A stretch of 64,000 bases of DNA from Granulibacter bethesdensis. GTDB lineage: Bacteria; Pseudomonadota; Alphaproteobacteria; Acetobacterales; Acetobacteraceae. Each line of letters starts with the position of its first letter. Positions within the stretch are counted from its first letter, which is position 1. The notes beneath the pieces were generated by a model that was not told the DNA's origin, did no database searches, and worked only from the letters and a program-made list of their open reading frames with translations. Location of the stretch: assembly GCF_001889545.1 (NCBI RefSeq), contig NZ_CP018194.1, positions 2,119,501 through 2,183,500 on the forward strand, in the 5' to 3' direction. Made by a program: the position numbers and the translations under genes. This document shows positions 45,878 through 64,000 of this stretch, one piece after another.

Positions 45878-46558
45878 TCAGGCAGGAACGCTGCCCTTGG
45901 CCCGTTCGACCGCATATTTGATCAGCGCCGCCGCGGAATTATAGCCCAGCTTGCTGCGGATCTGCAGCGCCGCATGCGCCGCCGTGCGGTAGCTGACGCC
46001 AAGGATCACGGCAATCTCGTTCAGGCTGCGTCCCTGACCGAGCAGATCGAACACCTCCCGCTCCCGTCGGGATAACGGGCGCAGGGGGTCATCCGGCTCC
46101 CGCAGCGTGTGGAGAGCGATTTTCTCGGCAACCCGTGGACCGAGATGCATCCCACCCGCGAGCACCTTGTCCAATGCCTCCAGCATGCTGAACGGATCAT
46201 CATTCTTGGTCAGATAGGCGGAGGCACCACCCTCCAGCGCGCGGGAGACAAAAGCGGGATCCTCATACATGCTGAACACAATGACCTTCAGGGAAGGCAC
46301 GTCCGCCTTCATGGCGGCCAGAACCTCCAGCCCCGGCATGTCAGGCAGATTGAGGTCGAGCACAACGACCGCAGGGCTGTGCTCCCGGTTCAGACGCACG
46401 CCTTCAGCACCCGTGCTGGCCTCGATCACCTCAACCCGCTCCTCAGCATGATCCTGAGCAGAACCGGCAACCACTTTGCGCGCAGGGGTATAATCCGTCA
46501 GCAAACGTCGGCATCCGGCACGAACAATCGGATGATCCTCGATCAGCAGCACCTTCAT
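45878..46558 (-). CDS. LuxR/NarL-family response regulator
   Basis: A 226-residue regulator: receiver domain with phosphoacceptor Asp in VVVLDLNLPDMPGLEVL, Lys in AYLTKNDDP, and a LuxR-type HTH (LSRREREVFDLLGQGRSLNEIAVILGVSYRTAAHAALQI). The start is set by AAGGA before ATG 46558. It sits downstream of the histidine kinase gene by 132 bases in the same direction and is probably part of the same unit. Position near the xox/lut locus suggests it regulates methanol and lanthanide genes, as ErbR or PedR2 do in pseudomonads; this is an inference. Confidence 0.9.
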   Translation of the reverse strand: MKVLLIEDHPIVRAGCRRLLTDYTPARKVVAGSAQDHAEERVEVIEASTGAEGVRLNREHSPAVVVLDLNLPDMPGLEVLAAMKADVPSLKVIVFSMYEDPAFVSRALEGGASAYLTKNDDPFSMLEALDKVLAGGMHLGPRVAEKIALHTLREPDDPLRPLSRREREVFDLLGQGRSLNEIAVILGVSYRTAAHAALQIRSKLGYNSAAALIKYAVERAKGSVPA

Positions 46559-46690
46559 CCTGTATTCCTTCCCCGCGTTCATACGGCATCCTTCAGACCG
46601 TCAGCACCGTCACCGGCAGACCGAACTGCACCACCGGACGGCACCCTCAGCGGGATACCTTCTTACAGGCCTTGGCTTATAGGCCGTGGC

Positions 46691-48316
46691 TTATAGGCCG
46701 TGGATATTAGCCGATTGGCTGCGGGAAGCGACTCCCCCGCTCTTTGCCTGCCATGGAATTCTGGCAAAAATCACTGCACCGCCATGCAGCCAGGCATCGT
46801 GACCATCATCCGGCTCATCCTCCCCCCATCCCTCAGCGGATAACCCGGCCTTCTGCGAGGCCATCATCATTTCCGCCAGCTTGTCCGCGGCACCGGGCTG
46901 GCCGTTATCGCCGATATAAAGCTTGCCTCCCGCGGCACGGACACGCTCCGTCATGCCCAGCAGACCGTACCCATAGGAAGGGCTCCCCGAAAATCCGGCG
47001 CCATCATCGCGCACATAGACGCCCAGCCATGGAGGCTCCGTCTTGCCATCCTGCAGGGCTCCGACTGGTTCCCGCCGGGGAGGCAGCCAGAAAAAACCAA
47101 CCTCCACATGTCTGGCGCCGGCATGACGGGCAATGTTGGTCAGACATTCCTGCACCAGACGAAACAGGGTCAGAGCCAGATCCGTCTGTGTCTGCTCCAG
47201 CCCGGCACAGAGCATGATATCCCACTGCGTTTGGGGAACGCGCCGCCGCCAGTCCTCCACCAGACGCTCCAGCGCGTCAGGCAGGCCCATTTCCTCCAGC
47301 ACCATCGGGCGCAGACGCTCCAGCATGGCCGCGTTTATGTTCTGGATGGCATCGACCAGAGACCCGACCGACACGACCCGCGACTCGATCTTCTCCACCT
47401 CGCGGATCGATAAACCATCCTGCCCATCACTCTGATACCGATCCCGGCACCACCGGGTCAGGGAGGCCAGTTCGGCCCTGATTGCGAAAAAAGCCGGGCC
47501 GAACTCGTCATGCAGCTCATGCGCGACATCACGCCGCTCCGCTTCCTGCATGGAGATCAAACGGTCGATCAGATGATGGTTATCCTGCGTGATGCGTTGC
47601 AGCCGGGCGGCCAGACTGTCAAAGCGAACTGCAATCGGCTGCAACTCCTCCACCGTCACCGGGCCGAGACGGGTGGCATATTCCCCCGCCTCCAAAGCCT
47701 CGAACCCTTCCGCCAGGCGCTGGAGCGGACGCAGCGACAGGGACGTGGCCAACATGATCAGCAGCACGATGGCAACCGAGATCGCGGCAAGCTCCACCGC
47801 GATCAGGCACAGCTCTCCCCAGACTTCCTTCATTTCGTCGAACGGATTGGCGATCAGGATAATCTGGCCAATGATCGCACCGTGATAGAGCACCGGAAAC
47901 GACCGGGCGACGATCGGCTGGGGCAGCAGATCGACAAACCAGTGCGGCACACGCGGACGCTGCCCGACCAGCAGAGGCGGCATCCCCATCGCCATCATCT
48001 CAGGCGCAGGCAGCAGTAACAGGTCCAGATGCCGGACACGCGGCAACTGTTGCGCCACCATCGTCAGCGCATCCTGCTGCGTCGGCATGGCGCGGGCTGT
48101 TACCAGCACGGCCTCCACCAGCACACGCCCCAGGCGGAAACCTGACTCCATTTCATTCCGGATGCGGTGATTGGCCCGGTGAAGGCTCAGCGCCAGAGAA
48201 ACAATCAGACCAACCAGCAGGATAAGGGCCGGCAGCAAGACCAGACGCCCTTGTAAAGAGCGTGTTAAACAAGGCCAGAATGGTATTCTGAAGACTATTT
48301 TCTGCATTTTATGCAT
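46691..48316 (-). CDS. Sensor histidine kinase, NarX/UhpB (HisKA_3) type
   Basis: A 541-residue membrane kinase: first helix at about 23-45, periplasmic domain of about 120 residues, second helix at about 165-193, HAMP-like linker, and HisKA_3 region with the His in ERRDVAHELHDEFG, N-box VQECLTNIARHAG, and G-box VRDDGAGFSGSPSYGYGLLGM. A Gly-containing stretch near the C-terminus is long and variable. It is divergent from the TonB receptor gene, 138 bases apart. Its start codon lies inside a sequence that recurs before xoxF. Confidence 0.9.
   Translation of the reverse strand: MHKMQKIVFRIPFWPCLTRSLQGRLVLLPALILLVGLIVSLALSLHRANHRIRNEMESGFRLGRVLVEAVLVTARAMPTQQDALTMVAQQLPRVRHLDLLLLPAPEMMAMGMPPLLVGQRPRVPHWFVDLLPQPIVARSFPVLYHGAIIGQIILIANPFDEMKEVWGELCLIAVELAAISVAIVLLIMLATSLSLRPLQRLAEGFEALEAGEYATRLGPVTVEELQPIAVRFDSLAARLQRITQDNHHLIDRLISMQEAERRDVAHELHDEFGPAFFAIRAELASLTRWCRDRYQSDGQDGLSIREVEKIESRVVSVGSLVDAIQNINAAMLERLRPMVLEEMGLPDALERLVEDWRRRVPQTQWDIMLCAGLEQTQTDLALTLFRLVQECLTNIARHAGARHVEVGFFWLPPRREPVGALQDGKTEPPWLGVYVRDDGAGFSGSPSYGYGLLGMTERVRAAGGKLYIGDNGQPGAADKLAEMMMASQKAGLSAEGWGEDEPDDGHDAWLHGGAVIFARIPWQAKSGGVASRSQSANIHGL
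48295..48314 (-). repeat. 20-bp motif shared with the xoxF upstream region (copy 1)
   Basis: On the minus strand the sequence GCATAAAATGCAGAAAATAG begins within the start codon of the kinase gene. It differs by one base from the copy upstream of xoxF at 63336-63355. Chance identity over 20 bases is improbable, but it could reflect similar coding starts and not a protein site. Confidence 0.5.
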
Positions 48317-48454
48317 ATTCTATATCATATAAAGCAAATACATATTCATTTTATGTGCCACAATGTACAACAAAGTACTTCCAAAATTCAAAATACCATG
48401 GACATTACCAAAAAATAATTTGTAGGACGCAACGAGTTACTCGGGGGGTTTATA

Positions 48455-50860
48455 ATGAGAAAAAGAATTATACTTGCCGCCGTTGCGCCTTTTCTTCCCG
48501 TCGTCGCCCAGGCACAGGGAACGATGAAGAATGCAGCGAGCCAAGGCAATCAGCCAGCGGCTTCGTCTCCCGCTGAAAACAGCACACCCAATTTCACGCT
48601 GCCTTCCCTGCAGGTGGTGGGAACGACCCCACTTCAGGGGTCGGGACTGAACCGGGAAGAAGTACCCGCAGCCACTCAGGTTTATACCGGGCTTGATACC
48701 CAGAAAACCGGCCCGGCAGACCTGCTGCGTTCGCTGGAACAACAGGGCACCGGTATTTCCTTCAATCAGGCGGTGGGCAATTCCCTTCAGCCCAATCTGA
48801 TCTATCGCGGCTTTTCCGCTTCTCCACTGGCCGGTGATCCCCAGGGCCTTGCGGTCTATGTCAACGGCACACGCTTCAACCAGTCCTTTGGCGATACGGT
48901 GAACTGGGATCTGATCCCCAGCATCGCCATTGATGAAACACAGCTGGTCGGCGCCAATCCGGCTTTCGGTCTGAATGCGCTGGGCGGTGCCCTGTCCGTG
49001 CGGATGAAGGACGGCTTTAACTATCAGGGCGGTCAGGTCGAGGTATCGGGGGGGTCGTTCGGCAACATCACCCTGTCCGGACAATATGGTGTGAAGTCCA
49101 AAGACGGCACGATGTCCGCCTATATTGCCGCCAGCGGGATGAACGAGGATGGCTGGCGCCAGCATTCCCCATCTCAGGCGCGCCAGGTTTACGGCGATAT
49201 CGGATGGCGCAGCGACCGTGCCGAAGCGCATGTCAACGTGACCTATGCCAACAATATTCTGGTCGGCAACGGCACAACCCCGGTTGAACTGCTGGCAGCG
49301 GACCGGAGTGCGGTGTTCACCTATCCCGATCAGACCCGCAACAAATATGTCCGCGTTGTCGGCAGCACCACGGTGACAGTGACCGATGAGTGGTCAGTGC
49401 AGGGCAATGTCTATTACAGCAACCTGTCCCAGCGCACCTTCAACGGCGACGCAGCCGAGGTTGAGCCGTGCGATGACGATCCCACTCTGGTCTGTTCAGA
49501 GGATGGCCCCCCGCTGCAATCCCGTCGCGGCGGATATGTTCCCAATTTCGTGCAGAACAGCCCGTATAACCAGCACGGCTTCGATTATGACGAGGGCGGT
49601 CCCTACGCCTATCTGAACCGCACCGCGACCGATACCAACGGGTTCGGAGCCTCGGCACAGGGTGTGAATACCGCCACGGTGTTCGGCCACAAGAACCATT
49701 TCGTAGCCGGTGTCAGCTATGATGGCGGGCGCAGCACTTTCACCGCCAACACTTTGATCGGCCCGCTGACCCTTGATCGCGGCTTTGGCGGCCCCAGCAT
49801 TGAGGTTGATGACTCCACCGCCAATGTGCTGCCGGTGCGGGTGAATACCAGCAACGACTATTACGGTGTTTTCTTCACGGATACGTTCGACATCACCGAA
49901 AAACTGGCCGCCACCGTCTCGGGGCGTTTCAACTCCGCCCAGATCGCGCTGAACGACCAGATCGGCACCAGCCTGAACGGCCAGCATTCCTATAACCGCT
50001 TCAATCCCGCAGCCGGCCTGACCTGGAAGATCACGCGCTCCGTCTCCGCCTATGCCGGCTATGCCGAATCGAACCGCGCGCCAACCCCGGCGGAGCTTTC
50101 CTGCGCCGATCCGACCGCCCCGTGCAGCCTGACCAATTTCTTCGTCGGTGATCCGCCCCTGAAGCAGGTCGTGGCCCATACCTGGGAAGCCGGGTTCCGT
50201 GGCCATCACAAGGTCGAGACCGCCACCGTCAACTGGCATACCGGCTATTTCCATACCGGCAGTGATGACGATCTGGCCTTCGTATCCAGCGAGACCTCCG
50301 GGCGAGCCTATTTCCGGAATGTTGGCCCCACCACACGTCAGGGTGTGGAAGCCTCCGTCAATCTGATTGCCGGCGCATGGTCGGTCTTCGCCAACTATTC
50401 TTTCACCGATGCCCGCTATGGCAGCAATTTCACGCTCAATTCCGAGGATAATCCTTACGCTGATGACGGGCTCGTCAATGTGCGCAAGGGCAACTACATC
50501 ACCGGGATTCCCGCCCACGTGTTCAAGGTCGGCGTACAGTGGTCGGTAACGCCCAAATGGGTTGTGGGTCTGATCGGGCGTGCCGCGAGCGGCCAGTATC
50601 TGATCGGCGATGAAGGCAACCAGAACCAGCGGACCGGCAATTACTTCGTGATGGATTTCAACACCGCCTACCAGATCACGAAAAATGTGCAGCTGTTCGG
50701 CCTGGTGCGGAACCTGACCAACCAGAACTATGCCACTTTCGGCACATTCTCCCCGGTTGGTGAAGTCCCGATGCTTCAGGCTCCCAATGCCACCAATACC
50801 AGAAGCCTCAGCCCGGGCGCTCCCATCGCCGGATATGGCGGTGTGCGCGTTTCCTTCTGA
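48455..50860 (+). CDS. TonB-dependent outer-membrane receptor, likely for lanthanide complexes
   Basis: An 801-residue outer-membrane protein with signal peptide, a plug domain (LPSLQVVGTTPLQ ... LLRSLEQQGTGISFNQAVGNSLQPNLIYRGF), and a 22-stranded beta-barrel ending in the usual terminal Phe (GYGGVRVSF). Strong GGGGGG six bases before ATG 48455. Divergent from the two-component genes and in the xoxF locus, it is the counterpart of LutH (Methylorubrum), the receptor for lanthanide or chelated lanthanide. A siderophore or other substrate remains possible. Confidence 0.88.
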   Translation: MRKRIILAAVAPFLPVVAQAQGTMKNAASQGNQPAASSPAENSTPNFTLPSLQVVGTTPLQGSGLNREEVPAATQVYTGLDTQKTGPADLLRSLEQQGTGISFNQAVGNSLQPNLIYRGFSASPLAGDPQGLAVYVNGTRFNQSFGDTVNWDLIPSIAIDETQLVGANPAFGLNALGGALSVRMKDGFNYQGGQVEVSGGSFGNITLSGQYGVKSKDGTMSAYIAASGMNEDGWRQHSPSQARQVYGDIGWRSDRAEAHVNVTYANNILVGNGTTPVELLAADRSAVFTYPDQTRNKYVRVVGSTTVTVTDEWSVQGNVYYSNLSQRTFNGDAAEVEPCDDDPTLVCSEDGPPLQSRRGGYVPNFVQNSPYNQHGFDYDEGGPYAYLNRTATDTNGFGASAQGVNTATVFGHKNHFVAGVSYDGGRSTFTANTLIGPLTLDRGFGGPSIEVDDSTANVLPVRVNTSNDYYGVFFTDTFDITEKLAATVSGRFNSAQIALNDQIGTSLNGQHSYNRFNPAAGLTWKITRSVSAYAGYAESNRAPTPAELSCADPTAPCSLTNFFVGDPPLKQVVAHTWEAGFRGHHKVETATVNWHTGYFHTGSDDDLAFVSSETSGRAYFRNVGPTTRQGVEASVNLIAGAWSVFANYSFTDARYGSNFTLNSEDNPYADDGLVNVRKGNYITGIPAHVFKVGVQWSVTPKWVVGLIGRAASGQYLIGDEGNQNQRTGNYFVMDFNTAYQITKNVQLFGLVRNLTNQNYATFGTFSPVGEVPMLQAPNATNTRSLSPGAPIAGYGGVRVSF

Positions 50861-50885
50861 AACGGCTTGATCCTGTATCATTATG

Positions 50886-50914
50886 AAGGGCGGTCTCCGG
50901 ACCGCCCTTTTTTT
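50886..50914 (+). terminator. Intrinsic terminator after the TonB receptor gene
   Basis: Stem AAGGGCGGTC (50886-50895) pairs with GACCGCCCTT (50100-region arm, 50900-50909) around TCCG and is followed by a T-run to 50914. It separates the receptor from the leftward gene at 50933. Confidence 0.85.
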
Positions 50915-50932
50915 GATCTCTGCCTTACCGAC

Positions 50933-51370
50933 TCAGGGTGTGCAGTCCTTCAAATCGGCATCGCCGATTGAAAAAGCATAGGGACCGTCTTCCTTCGCCT
51001 CGACATCATGAACCACACAACTACGCCCGCGCTTCAGTTTCAGCTTCACGTCATAGCGGCCCGGCTGAATACCGAGGATTTTCAGGCGCTCATCCGCCTC
51101 AACCTCTCCATCCTTATCGTTCTTGCACTGATCACTGCCCCATGCCGTCGTGCCGACAGGGGCCATCTGAAGTTTCACGATGGTGTCAGAGGTCGTATTC
51201 CAGAACCTCATCGCCTTACCCGCAGCGATTGCGCTGCCACCAGCAGCCATGGTCAGGCCGATGCCGATCAGGCCGCCGAACCACAGCATGCGATATTTCC
51301 GACCCGAAGGCTTCGAGGTGGCAAGGGCGGTTGCCAGAAGTGAGTCACCTGTTTCAACAGAGATAATCAT
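50933..51370 (-). CDS. Small exported or anchored hypothetical protein
   Basis: A 145-residue protein with a hydrophobic helix at about 26-45 (WFGGLIGIGLTMAAGGSAIAA) and a periplasmic beta-rich domain (FWNTTSDTIVKLQMAPVGT, ILGIQPGRYDVKLKLKRGRSCVVHDVEAKEDGPYAFSI) with three cysteines (DQCKN, RSCVV, DCTP). AAGGA fixes the start at ATG 51370. Function unknown. It is divergent from the cytochrome c gene and within the xox/lut region, so it may be an accessory factor. Confidence 0.68.
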   Translation of the reverse strand: MIISVETGDSLLATALATSKPSGRKYRMLWFGGLIGIGLTMAAGGSAIAAGKAMRFWNTTSDTIVKLQMAPVGTTAWGSDQCKNDKDGEVEADERLKILGIQPGRYDVKLKLKRGRSCVVHDVEAKEDGPYAFSIGDADLKDCTP

Positions 51371-51565
51371 GGACTTTTGTTCCTTCCTGAAACCCGTCAT
51401 ACTGCGATCTGGAGCCGGTTGACGAAGGTGCCATGCCGGTGCCGCAAAATTGCCTCAAGAATGCCTCGACGAACGGCTATCGGAAAGAGCGTCAACAAGA
51501 TAATGTCCCGGCGCGGCTCATTGGGGGCCGTGCCTTTCCGAACCACCTTGCAACGGGACGAAACG

Positions 51566-51943
51566 ATGCAAAGCAAACTGGTTCCTGCTCTCGCTTTCTC
51601 CGCTTTTGCGCTGCTGGCCGCCGGCCAGGCGCGCGCGGATGGCGATGCCGAAGCAGGTAAGACCCTCTTCAAAAAGTGCGGCTTCTGCCACTCCACCGAA
51701 GCCGGCAAGAACAAGGTCGGCCCCTCCCTGGCCGGCATCGTCGGTCGCAAGGCAGGTGTTGAGCCTGGCTTCAACTACTCCGACGCCCTGAAAAGCTCCG
51801 GCCTGACCTGGGACGAAGCCACTCTGAACAAGTGGGTTGAAAATCCGAAGGGCCTGGTTTCCGGCACGAAGATGATCTTCCCCGGCATCAAGGACGAAAA
51901 GGATCGCCAGAACCTGATCGCCTATCTGAAGACCCTCAAGTAA
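51566..51943 (+). CDS. Class I cytochrome c (soluble, c2-like)
   Basis: A 125-residue periplasmic cytochrome: signal peptide ending AGQARA, heme motif CGFCH, and a Met ligand region near GTKMIFPGIKDE. It is similar to c2/c550 proteins that shuttle electrons to the terminal oxidase. It may receive electrons from XoxG in this locus. ATG 51566. Its 3' end overlaps the convergent ABC ATPase gene by eight bases. Confidence 0.88.
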   Translation: MQSKLVPALAFSAFALLAAGQARADGDAEAGKTLFKKCGFCHSTEAGKNKVGPSLAGIVGRKAGVEPGFNYSDALKSSGLTWDEATLNKWVENPKGLVSGTKMIFPGIKDEKDRQNLIAYLKTLK

Positions 51944-52700
51944 TCAGGTCTTCCGGGGATTGGAGGTCTGCCGCAAGGCGGGCCTCCTCCTCTGCCGTCA
52001 GGCTGCGGGCTGACGGGTTTGCACCGGGCAGATTAACCTGCCTGATCATGCTGGCAGGCTTTCCACCAAGCATCATGACCCGATTCGCAAGCCTTGCCGC
52101 GTCCAGCGCCTCATGCGTCACCATCACCGTCGCCATGGCGCCAGAACGCCAGAAACGCCGCAATAAACCCATGCTGCTGCCGATGCTGTCCTTGTCCAGC
52201 GAGGCAAACGGCTCATCCAGCAGCAGAATATCCGGTCTGGACGCCAGCGCCCTGACCAGAGCAGCGCGCCGTGCCATCCCCAACGACACACGGCCCGGAA
52301 GGCTGTCAGCCACTTCCTTCAGTCCGAGTTCTGTGAACAGACGCTCTATCAACGCCTCATCCGGGGCAGGCATCATCAGCGCGACGTTCTGACGCAGCGT
52401 TTTCCACGGGAGCAATAAAGGTTCCTGAAACACTGTGCCGATTCGCGGGAAAGCCCGGTTGCGGCGCTGTCTGATGCTGTAACCTGCCCACCTGACCTGG
52501 CCGGAATACGCATCATCCAGTCCGGCCAGAATACGCAACAGACTGGTTTTGCCACAGCCTGAGCGCCCCATGACTGCCAGCACATCCCCCCGGTGCAGAT
52601 CAAACGCAATGTCCCTTAAAACAGGTGTTGCGCCATGATTTTTGGCCTCGATCCGCACATGCAGCAGGGCGGCAGCAGCGTGTGCCTGCTCTATCGCCAT
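51936..52700 (-). CDS. ABC transporter ATP-binding protein, nitrate/sulfonate type
   Basis: A 254-residue ATPase of the SsuB/TauB group. Walker A is GRSGCGKTS, Q-loop VFQEPLLLPWKTL, and Walker B ILLLDEPFASLD. The signature LSGGM is altered to VSLGM (first Leu to Val, first Gly to Leu), while the serine and second glycine remain, so activity may be modified. ATG 52700 overlaps the end of the permease gene by ten bases. Together with the permease and binding protein it forms a complete importer of unknown substrate. Confidence 0.85.
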   Translation of the reverse strand: MAIEQAHAAAALLHVRIEAKNHGATPVLRDIAFDLHRGDVLAVMGRSGCGKTSLLRILAGLDDAYSGQVRWAGYSIRQRRNRAFPRIGTVFQEPLLLPWKTLRQNVALMMPAPDEALIERLFTELGLKEVADSLPGRVSLGMARRAALVRALASRPDILLLDEPFASLDKDSIGSSMGLLRRFWRSGAMATVMVTHEALDAARLANRVMMLGGKPASMIRQVNLPGANPSARSLTAEEEARLAADLQSPEDLIT

Positions 52701-53470
52701 GCAGATACCCGCCGTTCCAGCAATTGCAGCACGCCCCATTCCAGCGCCTGTACCACCAGAATAAAGGCCAGCGTGTAGACCAGAATCCCGGTCACATCGA
52801 AAAGCTGGAAATACACCTGAAGCTGAAACCCCACCCCATCGCTACGCCCCAGCAGCTCCACCACCAGCACGATTTTCCAGATGATCGATAGCCCGGAGCG
52901 GGCAGCCGCAAAAATATAGGGTGCCAATTGCGGCAGGATTGCGTGGCGCAGAATGGCAAGACGGCTCATGCGGAAGCTGCGCGCCATGTCCAGCAGCGCC
53001 GGGTTCAGCGCCCGCGCGCCTTCTCTCACCGTCACAGCAGTGTTGGGCAACTTGTTCAGCGCCACAGCCATCACCGCGGCCCACTCCGTCAGCCCGAACC
53101 AGATATAGATCAGCACGATCAACACAACGGCAGGCAGGTTGAGCATGGCGGTGAGCAGACTGTCCATGATCGCATTGAGACGGGGCATCCTGCCCAAGGC
53201 CACGCCAATCGCCGTCCCGACCACCAGTGCGAGCACGAAAGACTCGGCAACACGGCGCAGCGTAATCGCCAATGTTGGCAGCAAGGCCCCATGCACTGCC
53301 TGCTGCACCATGGCGGCGATGACGGTGCTGGCGGATGGCAGCAAGGGATCGTGGGCCCAGACTGCCGCGCCCTCCCAAATCGCCAGCAGCAACACCATCG
53401 ACGCGACCCGCCAGCCGAAACCGATCTGACCAGTGCGGGGGGCCTCTCTGCGGGCAGAAAATGCGGTCAG
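52691..53470 (-). CDS. ABC transporter permease, probable CTG start
   Basis: Six-helix permease of the SsuC/TauC group with EAA-type loop RSFRMSRLAILRHAILPQLAPYIF. An ATG exists only at 53398, within the first hydrophobic helix. The frame is open further upstream, and CTG at 53470-53468 has a perfect GGAGGT six bases upstream and overlaps the binding-protein stop (CTGA). The longer form (259 residues) keeps an intact first helix (GFGWRVASMVLLLAIWEGAAVW). I therefore take 53470; the 235-residue ATG form is the conservative alternative. Confidence 0.82.
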   Translation of the reverse strand: MTAFSARREAPRTGQIGFGWRVASMVLLLAIWEGAAVWAHDPLLPSASTVIAAMVQQAVHGALLPTLAITLRRVAESFVLALVVGTAIGVALGRMPRLNAIMDSLLTAMLNLPAVVLIVLIYIWFGLTEWAAVMAVALNKLPNTAVTVREGARALNPALLDMARSFRMSRLAILRHAILPQLAPYIFAAARSGLSIIWKIVLVVELLGRSDGVGFQLQVYFQLFDVTGILVYTLAFILVVQALEWGVLQLLERRVSAWR

Positions 53471-54498: not shown

Positions 54499-54720
54499 GG
54501 CGTTTTCCTCAAGCCTTGTGATCAAGGCGTTTTGAGTTCTATCCCGCCTATATCGGCATAAATTGTCAATATTTCATGGATATTTTCACCCTAAACGCAT
54601 TTTTATCCCTGTTATCCATCGCCACATCAGCAGGCACATGAGATAAAGGCAGAAGCGTCTGCCAATGTTTCAGGCCCTTTATCCGGAGAGGCCGTGTGGC
54701 GGGGGATGCGGAGGAAACAT

Positions 54721-55968: not shown

Positions 55969-56945
55969 TCCGCCACCGCATGGCAGCCGCGATTGTCAGT
56001 GCTGCGCTGGCAATCCCGCTTTTCGCCACCAGTGCGATGGCGGGCAAAATTCTTGTCTCCAATGAAAAAGACAACACCATCACGGTGCTGGATCAAGACT
56101 CTCTCAAAATCATCAAGACCGTTCCGGTGGGTGCGCGCCCGCGCGGTATCGTGCTCTCGAAAGACGGAAAAAGCCTCTATATCTGCACATCCGATGCTGA
56201 TCATATCGAGGTGCTCGATCTCGCCAGTCTGACCGTCAGCAAAACCCTGCCGAGCGGACCGGATCCGGAGCTGTTCGCCCTCAGCCCGGATGGAAACACG
56301 CTTTATATTTCCAACGAAAACGACAACATGGTCTCTGTGCTGGATATCGGGCAAAGCAGGATTGTCGATGAAATTCCCACCGGCGTGGAGCCGGAAGGGA
56401 TGGCGGTCAGCCCGGATGGAAAAACCATCGTCAACACATCCGAAACCACCAGCATGGCGCATTTCATCGACGCCAAAAGCCATAAGCCGGTGGCCAATGT
56501 GCTGGTCGGCACCCGCCCGCGTTATGCGGAATACAACAAGGATGGCTCTCTGGTCTGGGTTTCTTCCGAAGTTGCAGGTCAGGTCGCGGTGATCGATACC
56601 AAGACCCATAAAGTGATCAAGACCATCAGCTTCGCGATCCCCGGCGTACCGAAAGAAGCAGTCCAGGCTGTTGGCATCGCCCTCAGTGATGACGGCAACA
56701 CTGCCTTCATCTGCCTTGGCCCGGCCAATCGCGTGGCGGTGGTGGATGCCCATACCTACGAGGTGAAAAAATATCTGCTGGTCGGGCAACGTGTCTGGCA
56801 CGCTGCTTTTTCACCGGATCAGAAAACACTTTATACCGCCAACGGAATCAGCAACGACATGTCAGTGATCGACGTGCCCAGCCTCAAGGTTCTGAAATCG
56901 GTGCCGGTCGGGCAACTGCCATGGGGCGTGGTGGTGGCACCCTGA
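55953..56945 (+). CDS. YVTN beta-propeller protein of the PQQ system (LutB-like)
   Basis: A 330-residue exported protein whose repeats (for example ILVSNEKDNTITVLDQDSL, TLYISNENDNMVSVLDIGQ) are YVTN-family beta-propeller blades, like TIGR03866 proteins in PQQ-alcohol loci. GGAG five bases before ATG 55953. It overlaps the preceding gene by 16 bases. It may bind metal or PQQ in the periplasm. Confidence 0.88.
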   Translation: MSHAMIRHRMAAAIVSAALAIPLFATSAMAGKILVSNEKDNTITVLDQDSLKIIKTVPVGARPRGIVLSKDGKSLYICTSDADHIEVLDLASLTVSKTLPSGPDPELFALSPDGNTLYISNENDNMVSVLDIGQSRIVDEIPTGVEPEGMAVSPDGKTIVNTSETTSMAHFIDAKSHKPVANVLVGTRPRYAEYNKDGSLVWVSSEVAGQVAVIDTKTHKVIKTISFAIPGVPKEAVQAVGIALSDDGNTAFICLGPANRVAVVDAHTYEVKKYLLVGQRVWHAAFSPDQKTLYTANGISNDMSVIDVPSLKVLKSVPVGQLPWGVVVAP

Positions 56946-57721
56946 TGCCGACACCATCAGCCCCTTCATCCGCCGCGCTGGCCGTAAGCAGCCTCAGCCA
57001 TGCTTTCGGGGCGCGTCGGGTGCTGGATAACGTCACATTCAGCATTCAACCCGGTGATTTCTCCGTCCTGCTCGGACTGAACGGGGCCGGCAAGACCACA
57101 TTATTCGGGCTGATCACAAGACTCTATCACAGCAAAAGCGGCCATATCGCCGTGCTCGGTCATGATATGCGCCGGGAACCAGGCCGCGCCCTTGCCCGTA
57201 TGGGGGCGGTGTTTCAACAATCCACGCTCGATCTCGATCTGACCGTGTTGCAGAACCTGACCTACCATGCCGCCTTGCATGGAATGCCCTCCCGAGAAGC
57301 CCGCGAACGCGCCCTGGAGGAACTTGGCCGGATCGGCCTTGCTGATCGTGCGGGGGATCGGGTTCGGCAGCTTTCCGGCGGACAACGCAGACGTGTCGAG
57401 CTGGCACGGGCGCTGGTCCATGCGCCTTCACTGCTGTTGCTCGATGAACCCACCGTGGGGCTTGATATCGAAAGCCGCCGCTTCCTGCTTCAGCATGTGC
57501 GCGAATTGTGCCGCGATCACGGTCTTGCCGTGTTGTGGGCCACCCATCTGATTGATGAAGCAGATGAGCAGGCCCGCATCATTGTGCTGCATCAAGGAAA
57601 GGTGCTGGCACAGGGTGCGCGCGATACCATTGTCCGTGACGCCGATGCCGTCGATCTCGGCACCGCGTTTGATCGCCTGACACGCAACGGTCAGAATACC
57701 ACGCGGGAAAAAGCCGCATGA
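56945..57721 (+). CDS. ABC transporter ATP-binding protein of the PQQ/lanthanide system (LutE-like)
   Basis: A 258-residue ATPase: Walker A GLNGAGKTT, Q-loop VFQQSTLDLDLTVLQN, signature LSGGQRRRVELARAL, Walker B LLLLDEPTVGLD, and switch His in WATHLIDEAD. The sequence matches the LutE/PedA-type exporter-like ATPases of methanol loci. ATG 56945 overlaps the stop of the preceding gene (TGATG) and its own end overlaps the permease gene (ATGA). Confidence 0.9.
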   Translation: MPTPSAPSSAALAVSSLSHAFGARRVLDNVTFSIQPGDFSVLLGLNGAGKTTLFGLITRLYHSKSGHIAVLGHDMRREPGRALARMGAVFQQSTLDLDLTVLQNLTYHAALHGMPSREARERALEELGRIGLADRAGDRVRQLSGGQRRRVELARALVHAPSLLLLDEPTVGLDIESRRFLLQHVRELCRDHGLAVLWATHLIDEADEQARIIVLHQGKVLAQGARDTIVRDADAVDLGTAFDRLTRNGQNTTREKAA

Positions 57722-58539
57722 CAACAGCGTTTTTATCACCCGCCCAGTACGGGCGCTGCATGACGGGGATTGTCCGCCGGGAGGCTTTACGCTGGGTCCA
57801 TCAACGCGGACGCTTTATCTCCGCCCTGGTGCGACCGCTGGTCTGGCTGGTCGTGTTTGCCGCAGGATTCCATTTCGTACTCGGCGTCTCAATTATTCCG
57901 CCTTACGAAACCTATGTTCCCTATGAGGTTTATATCGCACCGGGTCTGGTGGCGATGATCCAGTTGTTCAACGGCATGCAATCGTCCCTCTCCATGGTTT
58001 ATGACCGGGAGATGGGCAGCATGAAAACCCTGCTGATCAGCCCGTTTCCCCGCTGGTTCCTGCTATTGTGCAAGCTGCTGGCAGGTGTGACGGTTTCCAT
58101 TGTGCAGGCCTATATTTTTCTGGCCATTGCCTGGTTCTGGGACATCACGCCGCCTGTGACCGGCTATCTGGCCGTACTGCCTGCGCTGATCATGGCCGGC
58201 TTGATGCTGGGAGCGCTGGGGCTGGTTCTTTCCTCCTTTATCAAACAGCTCGAAAATTTTGCCGGTGTGATGAACTTCGTGATTTTTCCGATGTTTTTCA
58301 CATCCTCTGCCCTTTATCCGCTCTGGCGGGTCAAGGATGCCAGCACCACGCTATGGTGGTTCTGCCAGATCAACCCCTTCACCCATGCGGTGGAGCTGAT
58401 CCGCTTTGCTTTGTACGATAAGTTCGCCACGCAATCGGCGTTGATCGTCCTCACCTATACCATTTTGTTCATGGCAGCCGCCATTCTGGGCTACGACCCC
58501 GGTCGCGGGCTGATGGCCCGTCGTACGGCGGCAGATTGA
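57718..58539 (+). CDS. ABC-2 type permease of the PQQ/lanthanide system (LutF-like)
   Basis: A 273-residue membrane protein with six helices and the ABC-2 pattern (VAMIQLFNGMQSSLSMVYDREMGSMKTLLISPFPRWFLL, FVIFPMFFTSSALYPLW, WWFCQINPFTHAVELIRFALY). It pairs with the adjacent ATPase. In Methylorubrum LutE-LutF is essential for lanthanide transport into the cytoplasm. Coupled to both neighbours by overlapping start and stop codons. Confidence 0.9.
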   Translation: MTTAFLSPAQYGRCMTGIVRREALRWVHQRGRFISALVRPLVWLVVFAAGFHFVLGVSIIPPYETYVPYEVYIAPGLVAMIQLFNGMQSSLSMVYDREMGSMKTLLISPFPRWFLLLCKLLAGVTVSIVQAYIFLAIAWFWDITPPVTGYLAVLPALIMAGLMLGALGLVLSSFIKQLENFAGVMNFVIFPMFFTSSALYPLWRVKDASTTLWWFCQINPFTHAVELIRFALYDKFATQSALIVLTYTILFMAAAILGYDPGRGLMARRTAAD

Positions 58540-59192
58540 AAGTGTCGAACCTCATGCTGCGCAACACCGTCTTTCGCCTGACCTCTCTGCTGCTGCTGAC
58601 AACAGCCACCACACCGTCATGGGCCGCCTCTTTCGACAAGGATCCTGACTGGCCGTGCCAGCAAAGGCTGGTGCCGCATGTCGCGGCAGCCACCTACTGG
58701 GCCGGGGAAGCGCCTGTTCCCTCACCCGGGGATGCGCCGCAGGACAAGGCCCGTGCCGACGTGATTGCTGCCGTCTCCGACCGCTCGCTTCCGCTGACGG
58801 ATGGTCAGGCCAAGCTTGCCGCCTATGCCGATACCATTCCTCAGGCAGAGCGCAGCAAGGTGCTGGGAACCCTGTTCGCGGATATTACCGCTGCGGTCGA
58901 TACAGAACGCTCCTCGCTGATTTCCCGTATCAAGGAGCTGGGCCGTCATCAGCGCGGGCTTGCCAGACAGGTGGAGGCGGTCAATGGCGATCTGTCCAAA
59001 TTGCCGGAAGAGCCGCAGGGTGCCGATCTGGTTAAATTCAACGACCTGAATAGTGAGCGTGGATTGCTGGTACGCAGCTATCAGGAGACCCAACATACCA
59101 TGCGCTATGTCTGTGAGGCACCGGCTGATCTGGAAGGACGTCTGGCAGCCTATGCCCGGACGTTACAAGCCAAAATCCAGCCCGCTCACTAA
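58536..59192 (+). CDS. Exported coiled-coil protein of the PQQ/lanthanide locus
   Basis: A 218-residue protein with a signal peptide (LTSLLLLTTATTPSWAA), then a domain with DWPCQQRLVPHV near the N-terminus and a helical coiled region (ISRIKELGRHQRGLARQVEAVNGDL). It overlaps the permease stop (TTGA). GTG 58542 or ATG 58554 are alternative starts. Its position matches the small exported proteins encoded in lut clusters, whose roles are not established. Confidence 0.78.
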   Translation: MKVSNLMLRNTVFRLTSLLLLTTATTPSWAASFDKDPDWPCQQRLVPHVAAATYWAGEAPVPSPGDAPQDKARADVIAAVSDRSLPLTDGQAKLAAYADTIPQAERSKVLGTLFADITAAVDTERSSLISRIKELGRHQRGLARQVEAVNGDLSKLPEEPQGADLVKFNDLNSERGLLVRSYQETQHTMRYVCEAPADLEGRLAAYARTLQAKIQPAH

Positions 59193-59218
59193 GCTATCCT
59201 GCGCGTAACAGCGGGCCG

Positions 59219-59770
59219 TTACGGCTGCTCTGGCGGGAAGACTGGCTGGTTCGGCACAAGCCGGTAACCAGCCGCTTTCCATGCCTCGGTTCCTCCGGGA
59301 AACCAGGCGACATGGGGATAGCCATAGGACAACGCACGCTTTGCCGCGTTCCAGCTCATCCAGCAATTGGGCAGGCAATAGAACACCAGCAACTTGCCCT
59401 TGTCGCCCATGGTGGCGTTGGCAAGCTGATGCCGGAACCATGTATCAACGCCAGGCGGCAACGTTCCCAACCCGATATCGGCCAGCCACAGACTACCGGG
59501 AATATCGAGGCGTGGTGGAGGCATCCACGGTATTTCCGGCGCACTTCCTTTCGGCTTGCGGGGAGCGGCCATGGCATCAATCAGAACCACCCGGCCCCGC
59601 TCGATCACCGTATGCAGCGCATCCGCATCCAGCACGATGGCGCCTTTGAGCGTAGCAGGGGTCGGCGCCTTGAAATCCTGCATCCGGTAGCCTTCAGGCT
59701 CTGGCGCAGGGGATGCAGCCGCCACAAGCAAGGATGCCATCAGACCAGCCACAAGGCGCATCGTTCTCAT
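59219..59770 (-). CDS. PQQ-dependent catabolism-associated CXXCW protein
   Basis: A 183-residue exported protein with a rhodanese-like fold and the defining Cys-x2-Cys-Trp motif (CLPNCW, near residue 135), like TIGR03865 proteins. Such proteins accompany PQQ-dependent alcohol dehydrogenases; the CXXCW may handle thiol or metal chemistry during dehydrogenase maturation. It lies 33 bases after the xoxJ stop, so the two are probably one unit. Confidence 0.88.
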   Translation of the reverse strand: MRTMRLVAGLMASLLVAAASPAPEPEGYRMQDFKAPTPATLKGAIVLDADALHTVIERGRVVLIDAMAAPRKPKGSAPEIPWMPPPRLDIPGSLWLADIGLGTLPPGVDTWFRHQLANATMGDKGKLLVFYCLPNCWMSWNAAKRALSYGYPHVAWFPGGTEAWKAAGYRLVPNQPVFPPEQP

Positions 59771-59803
59771 GCTTTCCTCCGCTATCTTCCCTGTGAGGCC
59801 GGC

Positions 59804-60667
59804 TCAATGCGCGGCAGGTGCAGCTTTCGGGATGATCGGATGATTTTGTTCATCCAGCAACGGGACATGATATGCCATGAGAATATCGTCGATAGCAGGC
59901 TGGTTTTTGCGCAAGGCCGCATTCAGACGACGGCGCCACTCGGTTTCATTCGGGCGCACACCCAGCGCAACACGATAATCAAGCCGCACCTTTCCATCCG
60001 ACTGCAAAAAATCCATATGCAGCGGCAGCTTGCCCTCGGCGATGAAATAGCCGGCAAAGGGCCCCCAGATCAGGGCCACATCGATCTTGTGATCCAGCAG
60101 ATCCTGCAACATCTGGCGCGGAGGCGACTCGACGCGTGTATCGACCTGTAAGGAATAGGCGGTGGCACGATCGATCAGATGCGCATGCAACAGAAGATCG
60201 GAAGGTGGGGTCGCTGCGATCAGGCCGAACCGTTTGCCTGCCAGAGAAGGATCGGTCACGGATGTCGCGGTCAGATGATCCTCCTGCCGCGTCACGATCA
60301 TATAGGCGGAGTGATAATAGGCGCTGGTGCTGTCCATCATGCCATTACCGGGTACAACACCGATCACAACATCACATTTTTCAGCGATCAGCGTGTTGCG
60401 CAGAAAACCAACGGTCTGCGGAAACCATGTGTAGCTGACTGGAAGCGACAGGGTTTTCGCCAGCAATGTGGCGATCTTGTTTTCAAAACCTTCCCGCTTT
60501 TTATTGGAGAAAGGCATATCGGATGGATCGGCACAGACGCGGAAAGCGGACCGGCTGACCAGATCAACGTCATATTGGGCAAAAGCAGGCGCATGCGCCG
60601 CACAAAACGCCAGAAAGGTCGAGACAGCGGCCAGAAACCGCAACCGCCCAGTCATGACACGACGCAT
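59804..60667 (-). CDS. xoxJ: XoxJ, periplasmic protein for methanol dehydrogenase
   Basis: A 287-residue exported protein of the solute-binding fold; the characteristic start of the mature part is FRVCADPSDMPFSNKK. Homologs (XoxJ, MxaJ) are believed to assist maturation or folding of the methanol dehydrogenase and its PQQ-metal site. It lies 66 bases after xoxG in the same direction and precedes the CXXCW gene. Confidence 0.9.
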   Translation of the reverse strand: MRRVMTGRLRFLAAVSTFLAFCAAHAPAFAQYDVDLVSRSAFRVCADPSDMPFSNKKREGFENKIATLLAKTLSLPVSYTWFPQTVGFLRNTLIAEKCDVVIGVVPGNGMMDSTSAYYHSAYMIVTRQEDHLTATSVTDPSLAGKRFGLIAATPPSDLLLHAHLIDRATAYSLQVDTRVESPPRQMLQDLLDHKIDVALIWGPFAGYFIAEGKLPLHMDFLQSDGKVRLDYRVALGVRPNETEWRRRLNAALRKNQPAIDDILMAYHVPLLDEQNHPIIPKAAPAAH

Positions 60668-60733
60668 GGCACGCGCTCCAGAATCCTGATCCGGCGAAGC
60701 ACAGCGCCCCGCCGGAAAGGAAGAGGGATTAAA

Positions 60734-61165
60734 TCAGTCGTCGAAACGCTTCGGACGACCGCGGCCCAGCGCCCCGTCAGAACGGGCCTTCAGGTACATG
60801 TAAATAGCATCAAGGTTATTAACGACGTCGGCAACTTCACCAAAAGCGGGCATCACACTGTCGCTGGTGGTGGAGACGTTCTTGCGACCGTTAATGACAG
60901 TCTGGGTGAACGTGTCATAGCTCATGGTCTTGAGCGAGTTGGTCAGATTAGGGGCATAAGAGCTGCCGGAGCCATCGGGACCATGGCAACGCAGGCAGTT
61001 ATCGCCATAAAAATTGTAGCCATGAGCAATGGTCTTGTCGCCCTTGCCGTCTTTCACATGCTTCTTGTAATCCGGCGCATCATCCGCATGGGCTGCGGAA
61101 ACGGCACCGCCAGCGAAAGCCACGCTGAGCAGGACAGCGGCAAGGCGTGTTTTGATGTGTGGCAT
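60734..61165 (-). CDS. xoxG: XoxG, methanol dehydrogenase cytochrome c
   Basis: A 143-residue periplasmic cytochrome c with signal peptide and heme motif CLRCH (GDNCLRCHGPDG) and a probable Met ligand in VMPAFGEV. It is the expected electron acceptor of XoxF. It lies downstream of xoxF with 205 bases and a terminator-like hairpin between them. It is coded next to xoxJ. Confidence 0.9.
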   Translation of the reverse strand: MPHIKTRLAAVLLSVAFAGGAVSAAHADDAPDYKKHVKDGKGDKTIAHGYNFYGDNCLRCHGPDGSGSSYAPNLTNSLKTMSYDTFTQTVINGRKNVSTTSDSVMPAFGEVADVVNNLDAIYMYLKARSDGALGRGRPKRFDD

Positions 61166-61306
61166 GGATCGTCTTTTCCTTCCTCGGTCAAAAGGCCGTT
61201 ATCAGGGGTGACATCGGCTGTGGGACAAATTCCGCGTTATCTGCATATTTGCCCCAGACTAATTCCGGCATCCGAGGCATTTTGGACGCGATAGCAAGAT
61301 AAAGAA

Positions 61307-61334
61307 CCCCGGCGACACGTCAATGTCGCCGGGG
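61307..61334 (-). terminator. Hairpin after xoxF
   Basis: CCCCGGCGACA (61307-61317) pairs with TGTCGCCGGGG (61324-61334) around CGTCAA. On the minus strand it is followed by TTCTTT. It could end most xoxF transcripts, letting a fraction read through into xoxG. Confidence 0.75.
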
Positions 61335-61370
61335 CCAATAATCAGTCTGTCAGATGATGACCGGCATCGA

Positions 61371-63173
61371 TCAGTTGTCGATGCCGAACACCGTCAGCAC
61401 GCCGCCAAGCTGCGTGTAGCTGGCGAGCGAGCGATACGCACCCACCGCGCCCAGACCATCGGCGTCACCGGTCAGACCAGCGGCCATACCGATACCGGCC
61501 CAGCCACCAAGGCCGGACAGAACGGCAATGTACTCTTTGCCCTTGTGCTCATAGGCATTGACGTTGCCGATGATGCCGGACGGGGTCTTGTACTTGTAGA
61601 GCAGCTTGCCGGTCTTGGCGTCGACTGCCTTCAGGTAGCCTTCCAGCGTGCCGTAATAGACAACGCCACCCGCCGTGGAGAGCGCACCGGACCACACGGA
61701 GAACAGTTCCGGATCGGACCAGGCGATTTTGCCCTTGTTAACATCATAGGCAATGAAGTTGCCCAGATGGTTTTCGCCCGGCGGCGGATACATGTTGACG
61801 GTGGAGCCAACGAAAGGCTGACCGGCGGTGTAGGACACCTTGAACGGCTCATAGTCCATGCAGATATGGTTCGTCGGCACGTAGAACATGTGGTTCTGCG
61901 GGTCGAACGAGGCAGGCTGCTGGTCCTTGACGCCGAGCGCAGCCGGGCAGATGCCCTTCGTGTTGTGGTCTTCACCACCGGCTTCGGTGGAGTATTTCTT
62001 CACACGCTGCGGGAGACCGGTCTTCAGATCGACGCCGGTAGCCCAGTTGACGATCGGATCGAACTTGTTCGCCTGCAGCAGCTCACCCGTCACGCGGTCG
62101 AGCACATAGGCGAAGCCATTACGGTCGAAATGCACCAGCGCCTTGGTTTCCTTGCCGTTCACCTTGGTGTCGGCGAGGATCATTTCGTTGATGCCGTCAT
62201 AGTCCCATTCATCGTGCGGGGTCATCTGATAGACCCACTTCGCGACACCGGTATCTGCATCACGGGCAAAAATGGTCATGGACCACTTGTTGTCGCCAGG
62301 ACGCTGCACCGGGTTCCAGGTGCTGGGGTTGCCGGACCCGTAATAGATCAGGTTCAGCTTCGGATCGTAGGAATACCAGCCCCAGGTCGCACCGCCACCC
62401 GTCTTCCACTGATCGCCCTGCCAGGTCTTGATGGAGCTGTCCTTGCCAACCGGCTTGCCGAGAGCGGTGGTCTTGTCATCGAACAGGATCTGGTCATCCG
62501 TGCCGACAGAATACGCCTTCCAGACCAGCTTGCCGTCTTTCAGGCTGTAAGCGGTCAGGCGGCCCTGCACACCGAATTCACCGCCGGAGATACCGACGAT
62601 CACCTTGTCCTTCACAATGAAAGGGGCGCTGGTGGAGGTTTCACCCTTCTTCGGATCGCCGTTGGTAACTTTCCAGACTTCCTTGCCAGTCTTGGCATCG
62701 AGGGCGACAACCTTGGTGTCGGCCTGAGCCAGAATGATCTTGCCGTCGCCATAGGCAACACCACGGTTCACGGTGTCACAGCACATCACCGGGATGACTT
62801 CCGGATCCTGCTTCGGCTCGTACGACCAGATCACGCGACCATTGTCGTTCAGATCAAGGGCGAACACCTTGTTCGGAAACGGCGTGTGCACATACATGAC
62901 ATCGCCGATCACCAGCGGGCCGCCTTCATGGCCGCGCAGAACGCCGGTGGAGAAGCTCCATACCGGATGCAGCTTGCCGGCATTGGCCACCGTGATCTGC
63001 TTCAGGGCGCTGTAGCGCTGATTGGCGAAATCACCTGCCTGCATGGCCCAGTTGGCCGGGTTCTTGGACAGTTTCGCGAGATCTTCATTCGCACGCGCGC
63101 CATCAACCGCGGTCAGGCCGACAAAGGCTGACACGGCAACGGACATCGCAAGCAGTCGCTTGCTGGACTTCAT
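61371..63173 (-). CDS. xoxF: Lanthanide-dependent methanol dehydrogenase XoxF
   Basis: PQQ enzyme of 600 residues oxidising methanol (and probably other alcohols) in the periplasm. Signal peptide ends near ARANED. The adjacent cysteines Cys131-Cys132 (MCCD) form the usual disulfide ring over PQQ. The lanthanide signature is present: Asp324 in WDYDG and Asp326 two residues on, where calcium-type MxaF has Ala. Glu in SGGEFGV and Asn in [10 protein letters not shown] complete the metal site. GGAGG before ATG 63173 sets the start. Confidence 0.96.
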
Positions 63174-63587
63174 AAAAATCCTCCCTGGGTTTGGCCGACA
63201 TCCACCAAAAACGCCCACCTTTCCGGCAGGTCTGGCATTGGCAGAAGCCGGTCGGAGCCGCCCCCGCCTGTTACTGGCTGACGCGGTGCGCGGGAGATTA
63301 TCTCTCGCAACCTTCCAACCACAAGAGGCAATATGGCATAAAATGCATAAAATAGGTTACATGATTGGAAATTTTGCGTCACAACAGCACATGATTTCCG
63401 ATATCACAGGCTCATTGTCGCCTTCTGACGATCTCTGCTGTCATGCTTTGTCAGTTAAATTACGTTTTAGAGAATCTGCATGAGCACTTTGTTCCTTCCA
63501 GAACGTCGGAAGGATGGTAGACTAAACGCGCGCGCAAGCATCACTATAAGCAAATAAACTGGCATTAAATGCCGTCAGGTTCAGGAA
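63174..63587. other. Divergent xoxF regulatory region
   Basis: About 414 bases between xoxF and the rightward gene at 63588, expected to hold both promoters. It includes a direct repeat of GCATAAAAT near 63336-63354 and GGCAT-taa-ATGCC (63561-63573) fourteen bases before the rightward start. No gene is seen here. Confidence 0.55.
63336..63355 (+). repeat. 20-bp motif shared with the histidine kinase start (copy 2)
   Basis: GCATAAAATGCATAAAATAG, about 163 bases upstream of the xoxF start. It differs at one position from the minus-strand sequence at 48295-48314. It is also an internal tandem repeat of GCATAAAAT. Confidence 0.5.
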
Positions 63588-64000
63588 ATGCTCCGTTACT
63601 CACTCTCTGCCTTGTTCTCCGCCATGTTGCTGACGGCTCCGGCCTTTGCCGCCGATCAGCCCGGCACCGAACCATCCACCAATCCGGCCGTCCATGCCGT
63701 GTTCGAATCACCGCATCTGGCCAATATCACCCAGCCGGAAACGCTGATCTATTCCTATGAGTACAAAGGTCCACAGTCTTTTACGGACACGGTGTCAGAA
63801 CAGATCATCAAGATCCATCCGGATGGCACCAAACTGGTCGGGTTTCACTTTCTGACTGGCGACCGATTCATGTTCACGCCATCGCTGGATGATTATCGCG
63901 GCAATCCGCTGGTGATGATCTTTCTGGAACATGATGTCATGGAAATGAAAAAATCCATCGGCATGGCCGCCGCCTATTTCCGTGCCCGCGTCAAGGAAGG
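63588..64000 (+). CDS. Exported hypothetical protein next to xoxF, cut off by the window end
   Basis: The frame starts at ATG 63588 and stays open to the last base (137 codons seen), so the C-terminus is missing. It has a signal peptide (MLRYSLSALFSAMLLTAPAFAAD). The mature part (SYEYKGPQSFTDTVSEQIIKIHPDGTKLVGFHFLTGDRFMFTPSLDDYRGNPLVMIFLEHDV) is beta-rich and unrecognised. Divergent location from xoxF suggests a periplasmic partner of the methanol system. Confidence 0.75.
   Translation, partial: MLRYSLSALFSAMLLTAPAFAADQPGTEPSTNPAVHAVFESPHLANITQPETLIYSYEYKGPQSFTDTVSEQIIKIHPDGTKLVGFHFLTGDRFMFTPSLDDYRGNPLVMIFLEHDVMEMKKSIGMAAAYFRARVKE

Follow-up and report, generated by a model that had tools for sequence, protein, structure and literature searches.

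Within the 64,000-nt stretch of Granulibacter bethesdensis DNA analysed here (the window, in whose numbering positions are given), which belongs to a host genome of one contig of 2.74 Mb, a run of xox, lut, ABC-importer and regulator genes spans 45878-63167, with an open reading frame (ORF) present for each gene described below. An earlier note on this DNA had placed xoxF, xoxG, xoxJ, a CXXCW protein, a lut-like run, a TonB receptor and a two-component pair within about 18 kb, and all of these genes were found between 45.9 and 63.2 kb. The same region holds an ABC importer (51936-54525), a 155-aa protein and a c550-type cytochrome, and is followed past 64000 by pqq genes, none of which the note had mentioned. 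Judged from family assignments and gene context, the locus very probably constitutes a lanthanide-dependent quinoprotein methanol-oxidation island equipped with metal uptake and recapture of pyrroloquinoline quinone (PQQ).

The enzyme gene lies at the right end of the run and encodes XoxF, the lanthanide-type methanol dehydrogenase (61371-63167, minus strand; TIGR03075, 751 bits versus a cut-off of 480). Its metal site reads W-D-Y-D, that is, the D-x-D motif with the extra aspartate, the lanthanide XoxF 6oc5 ranks first among its PDB matches (E 4.6e-285), and the same metal-site aspartate was found in 16/16 examined ORFs of at least 60% identity from the host's family. Next to it on the minus strand are genes for an XoxG-like cytochrome c (60734-61165), 41-63% identical to the xoxF-adjacent gene of relatives, an XoxJ-type periplasmic protein (59804-60667; TIGR03871, 312 bits versus 212) and a PQQ-associated CXXCW protein (59219-59770; TIGR03865, 219 bits versus 128). 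Facing them on the plus strand is a lut-type run, which encodes a LutA-type binding protein (54694-55968; TIGR03863, 505 bits versus 413.6), a YVTN beta-propeller protein of PQQ/lanthanide systems in the LutB position (55953-56945; TIGR03866, 512 bits versus 287), a LutE-type ATPase (56921-57721; TIGR03864, 354 bits versus 302) and a LutF/PedC-type ABC-2 permease (57718-58539; TIGR03861, 412 bits versus 241). Thus all four lut-type genes, as well as those of the CXXCW protein, XoxJ and the quinoprotein, exceed the curated NCBIfam cut-offs. We take TIGR03863, TIGR03864, TIGR03861 and TIGR03866 to cover LutA, LutE, LutF and LutB of Methylorubrum extorquens AM1, respectively.

The run closes with a 218-aa exported protein (58536-59192, plus), which was assigned to the LutG position by gene order. 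In a survey of 120 genomes of the host's family, in which E-value limits differed by query, it was found in 27, all 27 of which also carry LutA, and a homologue is present in the xox region of Sinorhizobium meliloti. Past the window end, pqqE, pqqD, pqqC and pqqB were identified above their cut-offs at a distance of 0.8 to 4.0 kb, with a PqqA-like peptide, recognised by eye, beyond them. Between xoxF and pqqE lie genes for two exported proteins of 224 and 138 aa, the first of which starts inside the window (63588-64000, plus; the pair as a whole: 63588-64000 and L023:89-1181) and neither of which belongs to a Pfam family; homologues of the 138-aa protein occur in 13/40 family stretches and those of the 224-aa protein in 3/40. 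The pair occupies the position of orf6/orf7 in M. extorquens, which is a positional parallel; loss of orf6/orf7 impairs growth on methanol with La, as reported in the accessible text of PMC7391723. No named family was matched by the 155-aa protein, the 218-aa protein or the two genes preceding pqqE.

The importer is encoded on the minus strand between the receptor gene and lutA, and comprises an ATPase (51936-52739; ABC_tran, 106 bits), a permease (52691-53398; BPD_transp_1, 72 bits) and a solute-binding protein (53467-54525). The latter matched PDB entries 9b1u/9b1v, which are PqqT of M. extorquens AM1, at 2e-46 by phmmer over query residues 55-346. A profile of 64 sequences of the binding-protein family recovered the same entries at 3e-100 and 9ooz at 1.9e-99, while amino-acid-binding proteins followed at 1.6e-7 or weaker, and a sulfonate-binding protein came in at 7.7e-4. 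This alignment consists of the window protein and the proteins of 63 of the 80 loci described below, 16 having been dropped for frame length and one (L145) being cut at a contig end; a separate alignment of family members used 17 of 22 binding proteins. The lysine of the DKSW motif (K164) is invariant across 64/64 rows and is equivalent to K142 in the published PqqT numbering, which was mapped to chain residue 115 assuming a 27-residue offset. According to the accessible text of PMC12828617, 9B1V is PqqT with PQQ and Gd, PQQ is bound with a Kd of 50 nM, lysine 142 was studied, and unmodified PqqT with PQQ binds La about tenfold better than Ca; PMC12124388 describes PqqT, in the text available to us, as capturing PQQ and helping prevent its loss. 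Because of the PqqT homology and the invariant DKSW lysine, the most likely role of the transporter at 51936-54525 is that of a PQQ importer of the PqqT type. Among the matches listed, the best named relative of the binding protein comes from an Acetobacteraceae genome.

We also weighed whether the transporter could be a second importer for lanthanide or sulfonate without PQQ specificity, since the binding protein has weak Pfam/NCBIfam matches in the broad nitrate/sulfonate/taurine-like class and the importer often neighbours or accompanies lut genes. Given the match to PqqT at 2e-46, the wide gap between PqqT and the amino-acid- and sulfonate-binding proteins in the profile search and the lysine retained in all 64 sequences, this is improbable, and the candidate of a second lanthanide importer was dropped once the profile had matched the solved PqqT. 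Among the papers listed for NitT- or taurine-type transporters with lanthanide, none dealt with lanthanide transport as judged by title and abstract. As a separate observation, the accessible text of PMC10848612 mentions that ssuABCDE, an operon for sulfonate transport, shows an unexplained response to lanthanide in strain RH AL1. With a PqqT-type importer in its middle, part of the locus, which the earlier note had labelled "metal-uptake", would therefore handle cofactor rather than metal.

To describe how widely these parts travel together, we combined the family survey with a survey of 289 genomes of the class, in which E-value limits likewise varied between queries. The XoxF query matched 30/120 family genomes, 27 of them at ≥66% identity and three (G037, G096 and G084) at only 57, 55 and 48%; the E-value limit of 1e-150 used for XoxF also admits MxaF-like enzymes, the host's own MxaF matching at 51% identity. 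LutA was identified in 29/120 genomes, with 26 of these 29 passing the family cut-off, and the importer binding protein in 25, of which 23 were shared with LutA. The receptor occurs in 35 family genomes and is shared with an XoxF-like match in 28 of them (25 at ≥66% identity), such that an XoxF-like match accompanies 28/35 genomes with the receptor versus 2/85 without it. The co-occurrence of the locus parts in the 120 family genomes is not a matter of chance. These counts also bear on the suggestion that such a locus in an acetic acid bacterium would extend the known range of lanthanide use, which does not hold, as 27/120 family genomes carry XoxF at ≥66%, 29 carry LutA and 35 the receptor.

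In the class, 30 genomes have the binding-protein family and 40 have LutF, 28 genomes having both: LutF is absent from 2/30 genomes with the binding protein and present in 12/259 without it. The association was assessed by a Fisher test, in which p-values overstate independence as the genomes are related. By hand count, the two genes lie within 10 kb of each other in 13/28 of the shared genomes, and among the other 15 they are on different contigs in 11 and far apart on one contig in 4; at the family level, the PqqT-type importer accompanies a lut transporter in 18/19 class families having the importer (hand count). Further, among the best 80 of at least 553 relatives in named genomes, an ATPase homologue was present in 77/80 loci and a permease homologue in 78/80, a lut gene in 54/80, a PQQ alcohol dehydrogenase in 30/80, pqqB or pqqC in 12/80, and any of these three in 59/80. 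Restricting to the 53 loci of >20 kb, 43 contained any of the lut, alcohol dehydrogenase or pqq genes and 39 a lut gene. Named members of the beta- and gammaproteobacteria also have the importer next to lut genes, and plasmids of Azospirillum lipoferum, Tateyamaria and Pseudosulfitobacter carry gene sets similar to that of S. meliloti. Two Pelagibacter-group genomes (L187 and L200) carry a PqqT-type importer, which in L200 is followed by lutE-lutB-lutA-lutF; the L187 stretch stops at a contig end, and no lut gene was seen in its available part. A twin-arginine count by simple pattern gave 33/80 and was not used as evidence. The pairing of importer and lut transporter was not found in the parts of the literature that we searched, to which the original PqqT papers do not belong; it is possibly new and may already be in print.

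At the left end of the locus, a TonB-dependent receptor with plug and barrel domains (48455-50860, plus) adjoins a sensor histidine kinase (46691-48316, minus) and a LuxR/NarL-type response regulator (45878-46582, minus; Response_reg, 73 bits; GerE, 34 bits), both transcribed away from the receptor gene. The receptor stands beside a kinase/regulator pair in five family relatives (L085, L088, L091, L102 and L122), and outside the family its homologues lie near PQQ alcohol dehydrogenases. A plasmid of Methylobacterium nodulans encodes a homologue of 38% identity, and between its gene and that of a lanmodulin (175.5 bits versus a cut-off of 135) lies a single response-regulator gene. From this gene context, a LutH-like lanthanide receptor is the favoured assignment. 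The kinase/regulator pair may be MoxYX-like, as suggested by a weak match of the kinase to the periplasmic domain LapD_MoxY_N (16.1 bits versus a cut-off of 25); its match to a UhpB-type model reached 99 bits, below that model's cut-off. We infer the metal specificity of the receptor and any sensing role of the kinase. The upstream regions of the receptor gene and xoxF share two 9-mers, a number reached in 66/500 shuffles, and so gave no operator signal.

Two other roles for the receptor were considered. If it were a PQQ importer of the PqqU type, the locus would serve mainly cofactor scavenging; in line with this, the receptor shows distant similarity to PqqU of E. coli (26% across 296 residues, E 3e-13), retains an arginine at the less conserved R536, neighbours the PqqT-type importer, and has a homologue near pqqABCDE in Burkholderia multivorans. 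The published PqqU signature, which we used as the criterion, consists of an aromatic residue at position 99, R304 and R365 (Y99 in E. coli, whose numbering is used); at these positions the window receptor aligns A, L and F, and K274 aligns with N, in an alignment that joins divergent barrels and is approximate. None of 17 relatives with residues at the signature positions has an aromatic residue, R or R there, the 18th being a gapped fragment. A PDB search with the receptor reached no PqqU chain at E 0.001, at which only the colicin I receptor was found, the genome itself has pqqB, pqqC, pqqD and pqqE, and one homologue lies a single gene from lanmodulin. We consequently rejected the receptor as a PqqU on its missing signature residues, and scavenging as the main purpose of the locus is quite unlikely. 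The other possibility, that receptor and regulators serve iron uptake and the xox/lut neighbourhood is incidental, draws on the generic haem/siderophore models that are the receptor's best NCBIfam matches, albeit below cut-off, and on a siderophore-type locus of the IucA/IucC type in the genome. It is very unlikely in view of the 28/35 versus 2/85 distribution of XoxF-like matches, and because other genomes link the receptor to lut genes, to the PqqT-type importer or to alcohol dehydrogenases.

The proposal of a lanthanide island with a LutH-like receptor, to which we return, has several points weighing against it. The generic, sub-threshold nature of the receptor's matches is one, and the siderophore-type gene set in the genome means that the receptor could take an iron complex. 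Of the 35 receptor-bearing family genomes, seven lack an XoxF match at the limit of E ≤1e-150, and in three further ones the match is only 48-57% identical. Matches of the XoxG-like cytochrome and of the kinase stay below threshold: the cytochrome misses the TIGR03874 cut-off (131 versus 162 bits), and the kinase scored 24.0 versus 25 bits for HAMP, 22.9 versus 24 for HisKA_3 and 15.3 versus 26.4 for HATPase_c. Moreover, in 10/53 full-length importer loci, from Skermanella (2), Azospirillum (4), Paracoccus (2), an Arenicellales genome and Thiothrix lacustris, no above-threshold match to lut, alcohol dehydrogenase or pqqB/C genes lies within about 10 kb of the importer. Finally, the genome carries a calcium-type MxaF/MxaI, so that XoxF need not be the main enzyme.

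The last point derives from the other quinoproteins of the genome, two of which (L020 and L022) read W-D-Y-D at the metal site and a third (L021) W-D-Y-A. The gene run that holds L021 also encodes the beta subunit of a methanol dehydrogenase (PF02315, 144 bits), and on the grounds of this neighbour and the W-D-Y-A motif L021 was taken as MxaF. By sequence, the genome thus encodes three XoxF-type enzymes and one calcium-type MxaF/MxaI. The view that methanol growth is strictly lanthanide-dependent was accordingly discarded, and lanthanide-independent methanol growth, which the earlier note had named as refuting the proposal, would not refute a lanthanide locus, as MxaF/MxaI is expected to permit such growth. 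Nor is the locus the "self-contained" model that was envisaged: lanmodulin, the two further XoxF types and MxaF/MxaI are encoded far away, and the pqq genes lie past the window. A second receptor of the same subfamily (G000 705244-707562; L121:5242-7620), 49% identical to that of the window, lies about 38 kb from the XoxF-type gene L022, which is itself 84% identical to the window XoxF and has no xoxG or xoxJ match nearby.

The host lanmodulin has 143 aa and is encoded some 177 kb away from the locus (G000 2359548-2359871; L213:1492-1923, minus). It was found as a homologue at E 2.9e-30 with M. nodulans lanmodulin as query, and passes NF053806 by half a bit (135.5 versus 135). By eye, it has four EF loops, three of them with proline at position 2, and its neighbours are a P-type-ATPase/MerR-like pair and a 3-hydroxyacyl-CoA dehydrogenase-like gene. 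Its presence elsewhere in the genome strengthens the lanthanide interpretation. Beside the receptor, the 155-aa exported protein (50933-51400, minus; signal peptide by eye) contains the motif NDKDGxVxxDE, which resembles an EF-hand loop minus the first ligand and in which N94, D95, D97 and E104 are invariant in a 10-sequence alignment. This family occurs in 18/120 family genomes; it gave no Pfam match apart from one chance-level match among 10 members, and PDB matches only at E 0.99. The protein is a possible candidate metal binder. The c550-type cytochrome lies between this gene and the importer (51566-51943, plus, from an ATG at 51566, the family scans having taken 51536-51943), with a Cytochrom_C match of 43 bits and 117 bits to NF043008, below the cut-off of 240. 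The siderophore-type locus noted above (L217:6347-12478) comprises two IucA/IucC-like synthetases, an N-hydroxylase and a GNAT acetyltransferase, and its product could serve iron or lanthanide.

The main parts of the locus are, by their sequences, known families, and their arrangement parallels those of M. extorquens and S. meliloti. The earlier comparison with lut and pedA1A2BC is well supported by the families, the D-x-D motif and gene order, the order being shared in family genomes and other Proteobacteria; for AM1 and Pseudomonas putida this likeness rests on published descriptions and family models. AM1, with lutA-lutH, lanM and xoxFGJ, has in common with the window the LutA/E/F-type transporter, the TonB receptor and xoxFGJ, and in both an exported protein follows lutF and two genes of unknown function precede the pqq genes. 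In contrast to AM1, all parts here lie within about 22 kb, the PqqT-type importer is placed between the receptor gene and lutA, lanmodulin is encoded away from the locus, and a regulator pair adjoins the receptor. The PqqT homologue, similar to that of AM1 over residues 55-346 and retaining the key lysine, is encoded together with permease and ATPase inside the xox-lut locus. In P. putida KT2440, pedA1A2BC is a reported lanthanide-uptake ABC system, and the window permease passes the PedC-named model TIGR03861; KT2440 is reported to be without a LutH homologue, whereas the window has the receptor, and its enzyme is XoxF. S. meliloti 2011 shares on pSymB the order cytochrome-xoxF-xoxG-xoxJ-CXXCW, lutA-lutB, the PqqT-type importer and lutE-lutF, with the importer nested (lutA-lutB-importer-lutE-lutF) directly after xoxFGJ. 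No match to the window receptor was found in its 39-kb stretch, and the accessible text of PMC12628762 reports no obvious LutH homologue for this strain.

From the observed family assignments, XoxF metal motif, co-occurrence and linkage, we infer the following substrates, transport directions, electron routes and regulation. Using a PQQ-lanthanide cofactor, periplasmic XoxF would oxidise methanol, or a different small alcohol, and hand the electrons on to the XoxG-like and/or c550-type cytochromes, with XoxJ and the CXXCW protein probably aiding maturation. Lanthanide, either free or as a chelate, would cross the outer membrane into the periplasm through the TonB receptor, and LutA/B/E/F would serve its onward passage to the cytoplasm, a role reported in M. 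extorquens and P. putida. Lanthanide transport by the Lut ABC system was shown in M. extorquens, where methanol with La supported no growth of lutE and lutF mutants before suppressors appeared, and slow growth of lutA mutants (PMC7391723, accessible text). Cytoplasmic lanthanide would then switch expression, as described for AM1 in the available parts of PMC7391723 and PMC9260416, and the kinase/regulator pair probably controls receptor and/or xox expression. The PqqT-type importer would recapture periplasmic PQQ, limiting its loss and complementing PQQ from the adjacent pqq genes. A variant, which we consider unlikely, is that the importer and LutA/B/E/F form one unit, in which PQQ, perhaps as a PQQ-lanthanide complex, enters the cytoplasm with or instead of bare lanthanide, the metal-cofactor pair being sensed or stored, and the 155-aa protein acts as an extra metal carrier beside the receptor.

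How lanthanide is delivered to XoxF and sensed by the cell is still under study in the field. As proposed here, the locus brings together a receptor, a transporter of the inner membrane, an importer that probably recaptures PQQ, and the genes for PQQ synthesis; the pairing of the importer with lut genes connects the handling of cofactor and metal in a way that can be tested, and speaks for counting PqqT-type transporters among lanthanide gene sets.

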